From NCBI GenBank assembly GCA_021736985.1, contig JAIPEW010000001.1:1-64000 (forward strand): a stretch of DNA of 64,000 bases, in the 5' to 3' direction. Shown in pieces: positions 140 through 51,393 of this stretch; the first letter of the stretch is position 1; every line of letters starts with the position of its first letter. A program made the position numbers and the translations under genes. This DNA is from Clostridiales bacterium. GTDB taxonomy: Bacteria; Bacillota; Desulfotomaculia; Desulfotomaculales; VENG01. The notes beneath the pieces were generated by a model. It was not told the DNA's origin and made no database searches. It saw nothing but the letters and a program-made list of their open reading frames with translations.

Positions 140-248
140 TATAAACATATAAGATTTTTTCAGATTTTAATTTTATATTATTAACTGGTTGAACAGTTTG
201 AATTATGTCACTATCAAATATAATGATTGTTATATCTTCATTGATAGA

Positions 249-318
249 TTTAACGAATTTCTAACCATTCATCTCCTACCTGTAGAGGTAGGAGACTTCT
301 GGTTAGAAATTCGTTAAA
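249..318. repeat. 70-bp perfect inverted repeat with nested hairpin
   Basis: An 18-bp arm at 249-266 is exactly complementary to 301-318 (it starts TTTAACGAATTTC). Nested between the arms is a 9-bp stem (CTCCTACCT at 273-281 with AGGTAGGAG at 286-294) around a GTAG loop. The inner hairpin looks like an IS200/IS605 terminal hairpin. The right arm abuts the first readable codon of the TnpB remnant, so this may be the scar or a miniature derivative of an IS200-type insertion. Confidence 0.75.
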
Positions 319-582
319 AACAAGCACCTGTCCCGGCATATAGCAGACGTTGGCTGGGGAGAGTTCAGGAGGATGCTGGAATACAAGACCAGGTGGTACG
401 GCTCGGAGTTAAAAACAGTTCCAAGATTTTACCCTTCAAGTAAGACATGCAGTACATGCGGGTACGTACTTGAAAAGCTAGAACTATCTACAAGATATTG
501 GCAATGCCCGCAGTGCGCCAAATACCATGACCGCGATATAAACGCGGCCATAAACTTGCTCAAATATTACCTGGCTGCCTAG
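319..582 (+). pseudogene. TnpB C-terminal fragment (IS200/IS605 family)
   Basis: The readable frame begins just right of the inverted repeat with a DVGWGEF stretch shared with the second TnpB remnant. It continues through the zinc finger (CSTCG and CPQC) and the RuvC-III motif (DRDINAAINL). RuvC-I, RuvC-II and the whole N-terminal lobe are missing, so it cannot be an active RNA-guided nuclease. An ATG at 373 would give a 69-residue peptide, but this is decay rather than a designed gene. Confidence 0.85.
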
Positions 583-705
583 TTATAAAAACTAAATAAT
601 ACCGCGAGTTCCGCGGGAATTGACGCCTGTGGAGACTGGCCCTGCGGCGGAACGGTCTATACCGGTCTACGAGCACCCAATCTGTGAAGCAGGAATCTGT
701 AGATA
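583..705 (+). ncRNA. omega-RNA / right end of the TnpB remnant
   Basis: GC-rich noncoding sequence directly after the tnpB stop contains short complementary blocks (CCGCG/CGCGG; ACGGTCTATACCGGTCT) and ends in a GAAGCAGGAATCT block of the kind that closes many Firmicutes IS605-type elements. This is the expected place for an omega-RNA. Function is unlikely because the protein is truncated. Confidence is moderate, as no folding was run. Confidence 0.5.
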
Positions 706-710
706 TTTTT

Positions 711-911
711 CTATTTACAGAGGAACGGCTCATATCCTGCATTATAAGCTTCTTCCTTGGAATCAAACTTAATCAGGTTATCCTCATGTATCTTTTTAGC
801 CCACTTGCAGTCGGGACGGTGAAATTTATCGCTGTTTTTACTGCCTATATAATAGTCCTGTGTTTCTTTTAATTCAGAGCCCTGCGGGTGGTGTGAACCG
901 TAAATATTGTC
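711..911 (-). pseudogene. Ada-like zinc-binding domain fragment
   Basis: The minus strand reads an open frame ending at a TAG (complement of 711-713). It contains IGSKNSDKFHRPDCKWAKKI and later KEEAYNAGYEPFLCK, the hallmark of the small Ada-type metal-binding domain often found at the C-terminus of secreted nucleases and lipoproteins. No start codon or upstream domain is present; the frame meets a stop near 980. It is probably the tail of a gene destroyed by the neighbouring transposon. Assignment is by motif only. Confidence 0.55.
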
Positions 912-2580: not shown

Positions 2581-3141
2581 AACTGCCAATCCATTGGCTC
2601 AGATGTAGGAGTGAAGGAGTTTGCCGTGCTATCTAATGGCAATAAGATACTCAACCCCAAGCATCTACAAAAGGCCGAGCGCAGATTCAAAACCCTGCAG
2701 AAAACCCTGTCGCGTAAGCAGAAAGGTTCCCGGAACCGGGCTAAGGTCCGGGTAAAGTTGGCCCGCCAACATGAAAAGGTACGCAATCAGCGCAAAGACT
2801 TCCACCATAAGGTATCCAGCCAATTAGTTTGGCAATACGGTATGATTGTAGTAGAAGACTTGCATATTAAAAACCTGGTCAAAAACCACAACCTGGCGAA
2901 GTGTATCTCTGACGTTGGGTGGGGTGAATTCATCTCAATGTTATCCTACAAGGCTGAAAGTGCCGGTAGGGTATTGAAAAAAGTTCCTCCCCACGGGACA
3001 ACTCAGGAGTGCAGCCAGTGTGGTAATACTGTTGCTAAAGACCTTTCGGTTAGAACACATAAATGCCCGCATTGTGGTTTGGTTATGTACCGCGACTATA
3101 ATGCGGCAATCAACATTTTGCATAGATACAAAGCTTCTTAG
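2581..3141 (+). pseudogene. TnpB, N-terminally truncated, RuvC core intact
   Basis: The frame opens after a TAG at 2578-2580 and immediately enters RuvC-I (GSDVGVKEFAVLSNG). RuvC-II (MIVVEDLHIKNL), the zinc finger (CSQCG, CPHCG) and RuvC-III (RDYNAAINIL) follow. All three acidic residues of the nuclease site are therefore kept, but the roughly 180-residue N-terminal recognition half is gone. A GTG at 2611 could start a 176-residue product, but that would begin after the RuvC-I aspartate. Probably a decaying IS605-type accessory nuclease. Confidence 0.85.
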
Positions 3142-40722: not shown

Positions 40723-41052
40723 TTGGCCAGTGAAAACATCAAACAATTAAGTGTAGATACGTTTAAATCTTTGGTGGAAAATACTAGCGAGCCAGTACTA
40801 GTTGATTTTTGGGCTGAATGGTGTGGGCCTTGTAAGATGATTGCTCCTGTATTAGAAGAGATTGCAAATGAAAACAGCGAAAATGTGGTTATCGGTAAAG
40901 TGAACGTTGATGAAAATAAAAGTATTGCAGAAGAGTATAAAGTAGTAAGTATACCGACCTTAATGTTTTTTAAGGATGGACAAGAAGTAGAACGTGTTAT
41001 CGGATTTAAGACCAAGAAAGAACTGCAGGAACTGCTGGATAAATACAAATAA
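40723..41052 (+). CDS. trxA: thioredoxin
   Basis: 109 residues from TTG 40723 behind GAAAGGAGAGG; the frame's upstream ATG at 40684 has no site. The redox motif WCGPC is at residues 33-37 and the cis-proline in VSIPTLMFF. General protein-disulfide reductant. Monocistronic, with its own promoter and terminator. Confidence 0.96.
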   Translation: MASENIKQLSVDTFKSLVENTSEPVLVDFWAEWCGPCKMIAPVLEEIANENSENVVIGKVNVDENKSIAEEYKVVSIPTLMFFKDGQEVERVIGFKTKKELQELLDKYK

Positions 41053-41091
41053 TAAAAAAAAAGAACACGCTGCGGCGTGTTCTTTTTTTTT
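41053..41091. terminator. terminator between trxA and rrf2 gene
   Basis: AAGAACACGC pairs with GCGTGTTCTT between an A-run and a T-run; it works in both directions. Confidence 0.9.
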
Positions 41092-51208: not shown

Positions 51209-51211
51209 AAT

Positions 51212-51252
51212 AAAAAATACCGGCACGCTGTTATAGCGTGCCGGTATTTTTT
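51212..51252. terminator. rho-independent terminator
   Basis: A perfect inverted repeat AATACCGGCACGCT / AGCGTGCCGGTATT between an A-run and a T-run. Confidence 0.92.
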
Positions 51253-51393
51253 ATATTATACATAATATAAAGTTAAATATGTTGAAAATATATTAACCAC
51301 CCATGATGCTCATAACGAAGAATGAAATTTTTTTACAGCCAGGTGGGGACGGTGGAGGAAAATAAGTCATTTCTTAAAGGGGGGCGGTAAATA

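Follow-up and report, generated by a model that had tools for sequence, protein, structure and literature searches.

A two-tier palindrome beside an interrupted tnpB as a possible fusion of two IS605-type left ends

Introduction

The target of IS605 is given as TTTAA or TTTAAA in excerpts of PMC2993954, and the TTTAA-target IS605 elements, which include IS605 of Helicobacter pylori (PMC2993954) and the TnpB7 element of Sulfolobus (PMC11043419), share their target letters, as the excerpted texts give them, with the locus described here, a palindrome at positions 249-318 of the window (the whole stretch of 64,000 nucleotides that we analysed). For TnpB7, the excerpt (PMC11043419) describes TTTAA as the TAM and notes that a conserved UUCAC precedes the guide, and a passage of PMC8266576 places a guide sequence 5' of each palindrome in IS200/IS605 elements. 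ISEfa4 has a left end (LE) that consists of the TTTAA target, AGAAG, a hairpin and TGAA, and the same plan is found in 249-318.

Several small sequences related to such elements invite comparison with this locus. The mini-IS605 of H. pylori is, in excerpts of PMC2993954, an IS605 deletion derivative that lies beside TTTAA, as 249-318 does; however, it keeps both ends, some 100-150 bp each, whereas 249-318 shows no right end (RE). In Haloquadratum, passages of PMC3119063 describe a terminal-only PATE of 52 bp, which is a small IS605 remnant like 249-318, and attribute such PATEs to repeat-mediated core deletion at near-terminal palindromes. PATE-like sequence is also known in Halanaerobium, according to an excerpt of PMC7290912. 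As these excerpts present them, PATEs retain both LE and RE and have no terminal inverted repeats, whereas 249-318 has an LE together with an inverted LE arm and its arms are perfectly inverted. The REP/BIME sequences and TnpA_REP, as described in part of PMC8266576, likewise tie palindromes to relatives of IS200/IS605 transposases. They differ from 249-318 in their high copy number and in the GTAG motif of one group, while 249-318 was found in one copy and has AGAAG as its 5' box. No LE-LE fusion of IS605-type ends appears in the titles and abstract openings of the literature matches listed.

Structure of the palindrome

Contig C35, which begins with the window, belongs to a genome of 2.84 Mb and 65 contigs. 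The perfect 18-bp inverted repeat with a nested hairpin that had been predicted there is real, and it is one base pair longer than claimed. Overlapping 18-mers join into perfect outer arms of 19 bp, 249-267 with 300-318 (TTTAACGAATTTCTAACCA and TGGTTAGAAATTCGTTAAA), and short unpaired boxes separate them from an inner stem (272-281 with 286-295) that is perfect over 10 bp and closed by a loop of 4 nt. The whole is a two-tier palindrome of 70 bases whose 33-nt arms, 249-281 and 286-318, are 88% complementary. Its DNA fold reaches -27.8 kcal/mol (z = -10.7), and none of 200 shuffles was equally stable.

That such a structure is merely a transcription terminator or a chance palindrome can hardly be credited. 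At the RNA level it is a strong hairpin, which agrees with a terminator, but a T-run is absent on both sides of 249-318, whereas T-runs follow the window's two further long perfect inverted repeats, 41048-41090 and 51210-51255, which are probably terminators. The original prediction had also argued that this is not a decayed terminator and had related it to IS200/IS605 elements, and both statements hold. As for chance, the window has three sites with perfect arms of at least 18 bp and a loop of at most 60 nt, whereas 30 Markov-1 simulations gave none, and the LE letters described below recur in unrelated records.

Identity of the left end

Read on the minus strand, 249-318 has the order TTTAA/CGAATTTCTAACC AGAAG TCTCCTACCT CTAC AGGTAGGAGA TGAA TGGTTAGAAATTCG TTAAA (Table 1). 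Comparison with other loci gives good support to reading it as the LE of a TTTAA-target IS605-type element, with the plan TTTAA, then C, about 12 nt, AGAAG, the inner hairpin and TGAA; like other IS605-type left ends, it has a subterminal hairpin with a conserved 5' box. Records of Ruminococcus, Brevibacillus, Paenibacillus and Enterococcus (ISEfa4) contain ordinary LEs of this plan, and so do three contigs of the same genome (C9, C27 and C31), which carry them at their ends beside unrelated flanks.

Table 1. Features of the palindrome and its flanks (window coordinates)
Feature	Position	Strand	Basis
Two-tier palindrome: IS605-type LE and inverted copy of its outer arm	249-318	-	
TTTAA target (TTAAA on the plus strand) at the authentic LE junction, part of the interrupted tnpB	314-318	-	empty site in C8; TTTAA at ISEfa4 left ends
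LE outer arm CGAATTTCTAACC	301-313	-	position same as that of the arm in other LEs
AGAAG box (candidate guide sequence) on the 5' side of the inner hairpin	296-300	-	
Inner LE hairpin TCTCCTACCT-CTAC-AGGTAGGAGA, presumed TnpA binding site	272-295	-	
TGAA box on the 3' side of the inner hairpin	268-271	-	
Second arm GGTTAGAAATTCGTTAAA, the LE arm and TTTAA inverted; absent from the ordinary LEs examined	249-266	-	
3' part of tnpB (TNB domain) of an IS607-type element	314-582	+	PF07282, E 7e-26 on 319-579; C8 identity
Right end region of the IS607-type element	583-728	+	C8 identity stops at 728
AT-rich flank, unlike LE leader regions, no own-genome match	140-248	.	

A scan of genome_contigs for boxed hairpins gave 18 ends, nine of which derive from one Ruminococcus MAG, and TTTAAC lies at most 25 nt upstream in all of them. 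Frames that look TnpA-like by eye follow the LE in four of these 18 ends (L074, L082, L085 and L086), several of the 18 stopping at contig ends, and the frame in L086 is a Y1_Tnp (E 3e-45). Judged in the same way, a TnpB-like frame lies behind the LE of L073, and a tnpB-like frame follows the TTTAA LE plan on a plasmid of Paenibacillus larvae (L132). On a Brevibacillus halotolerans plasmid (L133) the plan has the box AGAAT and adjoins an annotated transposase. The three copies of ISEfa4 have different 5' flanks, and each begins directly after TTTAA and has the RE ...GTAGTTCAC. Together with plasmid L148, which has the ISEfa4 site with TTTAA and without the element, these copies fix both ends of ISEfa4.

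TTTAA stands 5' of 24 of the 26 distinct pattern-matched ends among the loci examined, a count of ends fitting one pattern that leaves out ISEfa4 (L131), L130, L134 and two Bifidobacterium ends (L128 and L129); the last two have no TTTAA at the LE. The outer stem is 19 bp long in the window and 0-9 bp in 24 ordinary ends, the remaining one of the 26 being L071, a locus in a Ruminococcus MAG. Long LE stems do exist, since the LE on an Alkalihalophilus pseudofirmus plasmid (L130), which adjoins an annotated tnpA and lies outside the 26-end count, forms a stem of 16 bp or more without interruption. By alignment, the short outer stem is a trait of the LE family: both sides have changed at three of five pairs, and 93% of cells are paired in 12 sequences whose kinship can inflate these counts. 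In a test against 500 shuffles that used the structure of the window itself, 52 and 34 shuffles, respectively, reached two of the five measures, and no shuffle reached any of the other three. By analogy with the IS200/IS605 guide sequences, AGAAG may be the guide sequence of this LE.

The tnpB junction and the far side

Window positions 314-728 are 99% identical to C8:5109-5523 of the same genome. The C8 copy has a resolvase-type frame (PF00239) and an intact tnpB of 360 codons, and from this gene pair we take it to be an IS607-type element. It also supplies the empty site, reading antisense ...cttgtttttaa/TCATG where the window has ...cttgtttttaa/CGAATTTC. Within tnpB, the LE starts immediately after TTTAA, where a target-adjacent insertion belongs, and the right-hand arm therefore closes with 5 bp of target sequence. 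The original prediction had the outer arm end where the TnpB frame begins and had the palindrome split a tnpB. The abutment is indeed exact, but the tnpB homology begins at 314, inside the arm; the gene is interrupted as stated, but of the two halves the 3' part alone is present, its 5' part not being found in 1-248 of a contig that begins at 1. Parts of the right end region also occur elsewhere in the genome, 654-730 at C21:5262-5338 and 654-728 at C52:43458-43532, where the rest of the IS607-type element is absent.

On the far side of the palindrome the visible flank is an unrelated AT-rich stretch of 109 nt (140-248); next to it comes the end of another element, at 1-139, with which the contig begins. 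Neither an element body nor a recognisable RE is present in these 109 nt, and TTCAC, the RE of the ISEfa4 type, does not occur on the minus strand of 140-318; the RE letters for this comparison are those of ISEfa4 and of an excerpt of PMC11043419 alone. Compared with the stretches after other LEs, 140-248 scores 24, with a shuffle mean of 24.2 and 52 of 100 shuffles scoring as high. With 1-139 being another element and the contig beginning 249 nt before the palindrome, the body or the 5' part of tnpB could lie off the contig. We have filed 249-318 as a left-end remnant and not as a complete IS605-type element.

Copies and rarity

The original prediction had compared the locus to palindrome-associated miniature transposons and had made this depend on further copies in this or related genomes. 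There is no further copy of 249-318 in its own genome and no full-length copy in 59 relatives. Partial matches of the 70-mer occur in 17 of these 59 (E at most 1), and the four contexts inspected (L006-L009) are all hairpin-only. Three other hairpins of the own genome, matched with 3 mismatches, belong to ordinary LEs at the ends of contigs. Having one copy in its genome and no RE of the ISEfa4 kind, the locus does not bear out the comparison.

The palindrome pattern (...TGAA, 6-16 nt, GTTAAA) was matched in one of 113 genomes of the order and in one of 398 genomes of the phylum, two overlapping sets in which both matches are the window. In 396 genomes of the family of the Ruminococcus MAG it was matched once, at L071. 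All palindrome patterns required TGAA, so that symmetrical AGAAG...CTTCT centres fall outside their scope. Among viral_contigs the palindrome match was L088 alone, which has GTTAAA and a stem of 6 bp. The pattern for ordinary LEs gave 11 matches in four of the 398 genomes. Because the patterns are strict, the ordinary and the palindromic counts are both lower bounds. When the arm and AGAAG were sought with at most 3 mismatches in 112 genomes, the sole match outside the window was L152, which is without the hairpin. Plasmid and phage searches with 140-330 gave hairpin-part or weak matches alone among the best 20 of 143 and of 83 records, respectively.

A second palindrome in a Ruminococcus MAG

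L071 is one case of a palindrome of the same plan with other arm letters. Between its arms 16 of 18 positions match, the stem running over 9 pairs, one mismatch and 8 more pairs, and the symmetry stops exactly at TTTAA there as it does in the window. Of the 11 LE arms in this MAG (at most 2 mismatches), 10 are ordinary and one is palindromic, and the exact second arm was found once; a backwards control pattern also gave one match there. In both the window and L071 the authentic flank, on the AGAAG side, is tnpB sequence; in L071 this is a tnpB-like remnant at a distance of some tens of nt, with a TNB score of 24.9 bits, slightly under the curated cut-off of 26.3. TTCAC does not occur in the 300 nt from the start of the L071 palindrome. 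A gene for ATP synthase subunit D lies within about 200 nt, and there is no adjacent IS body in a record where 1078 nt follow. Compared at the sequence level, the palindromic LE architecture recurs although the arm sequence does not.

Eight relatives have matches to both neighbour genes of L071. These are adjacent and in the same orientation in two (G561 and G599), near each other but inverted in two (G508 and G571), while in the remaining four (G503, G515, G560 and G593) they are widely separated or lie on different contigs. The adjacency in two of the eight makes a plain insertion possible there. The intergenic stretch does not align, however, and thus the locus shows neither a plain insertion nor a fusion.

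Discussion

We consider that 249-318 may well be a rare dead scar left by the fusion of two LEs that faced each other head to head at separate TTTAA sites. An IS605-type LE on the minus strand would have inserted 3' of TTTAA inside the IS607-type tnpB; a second LE in the opposite orientation, at another TTTAA site, would then have contributed its outer arm, joined to the first LE at the hairpin. Both element bodies, both right ends and the 5' part of tnpB would have been lost from between the two LEs, by deletion and not by lying beyond the contig start. The join may have been made through a short repeat of the LE, as the 3' strand of the outer stem is also the start of the inverted arm. With two insertion-like ends, different flanks and one half of tnpB missing, a deletion between head-to-head copies is the most simple account, and the fusion product, having no right end, should not transpose. 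Against this account, no other copy of the window LE was found in its own genome, an assembly of 65 contigs from which repeats may be missing, and hence the account needs two near-identical copies that have both since been consumed. In addition, the join reads AGAAG...TGAA, whereas a crossover inside the inner hairpin is expected to give AGAAG...CTTCT, and L130, outside the 26 ends, shows that another LE is also long-stemmed.

A single LE could also have produced the symmetry if a strand had folded back at its natural hairpin during repair or replication, copied its own outer arm and TTTAA and been joined to unrelated DNA. This would need one IS copy only, in line with the one copy found, and the natural outer stem would put the 3' end on the right template; yet copying should continue into the flank, whereas the symmetry ends exactly at TTTAA in both cases, and we regard such snap-back duplication as somewhat unlikely. 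We judge it rather improbable that the LE is ordinary but for an unusually long stem, in which case the element body would be 140-248 and would resume past the element at 1-139, off the contig. The contig start does conceal the sequence further left, and stem length does vary, as the L130 stem illustrates. But the ordinary LEs examined have a short outer stem, with none above 9 bp in the 24 other pattern-matched ends, L071 aside, while in 249-318 the arm is fully inverted and neither body nor RE is seen. Moreover, 140-248 is unlike the stretches after other LEs, although these diverge fast, and an ordinary LE leaves unexplained both the inverted TTTAA and L071, where no body stands next to the palindrome.

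Whether 249-318 could be a palindromic mini-element, moved as a unit by TnpA acting in trans in the manner of PATEs or MITEs, is quite doubtful. In its favour are the same plan in two distant bacteria with TTTAA at both ends, the neighbours of L071 that are adjacent in two of eight relatives, and passages of PMC3119063 in which the 52-bp terminal-only PATEs of Haloquadratum may be mobile. However, one copy was found per genome, and tnpB does not resume on the other side within the visible 248 nt. PATEs have both IS605 ends without a transposase, no terminal inverted repeats, and multiple copies or strain-specific insertions, whereas no TTCAC right end is present in the palindrome or in 140-248, the inverted arms are perfect over 19 bp, and this genome has one copy and the 59 relatives no full-length copy. 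MITEs have the terminal inverted repeats of a known transposon, a target duplication and multiple copies, and here there is one copy whose flanks are not one tnpB site. A terminal-only PATE made of LE and RE was set aside because the RE of the family ends in TTCAC.

As a remnant the feature is largely explained; what is unusual is its LE-LE form, which has been seen twice. It is conceivable, though we think it distinctly improbable, that IS605 elements repeatedly give rise to such LE-LE palindromes and that TnpA itself forms or moves them; the symmetrical unit would have one TTTAA cleavage site per strand and no RE, and would have arisen independently in distant bacteria. The locus shows how the decay of IS605-type elements can yield perfect palindromes resembling miniature transposons, and before a palindrome beside tnpB is named a mobile element its right end should be looked for. 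If LE-LE fusions such as our preferred reading proposes are recurrent, they record deletions between inverted single-strand transposons.

Other features of the window

On the minus strand, window 1-139 matches the 5' part of the HEARO RNA (RF02033) with 48 bits, under the gathering score. Copies of 1-139 at 97-100% identity are found on six other contigs, C1, C9, C36, C37, C47 and C52, and on C36 (L057 2134-2369) a full HEARO with 108 bits is followed by an IS605-type tnpA and tnpB, not by iscB. Positions 727-857 are 82% identical to C28:40130-40260. On the plus strand, 1061-1813 is a lipoprotein-like frame with an LppM domain, and 2611-3141 is a second tnpB fragment of 176 codons, in which OrfB_IS605 is matched only from profile position 26 on.
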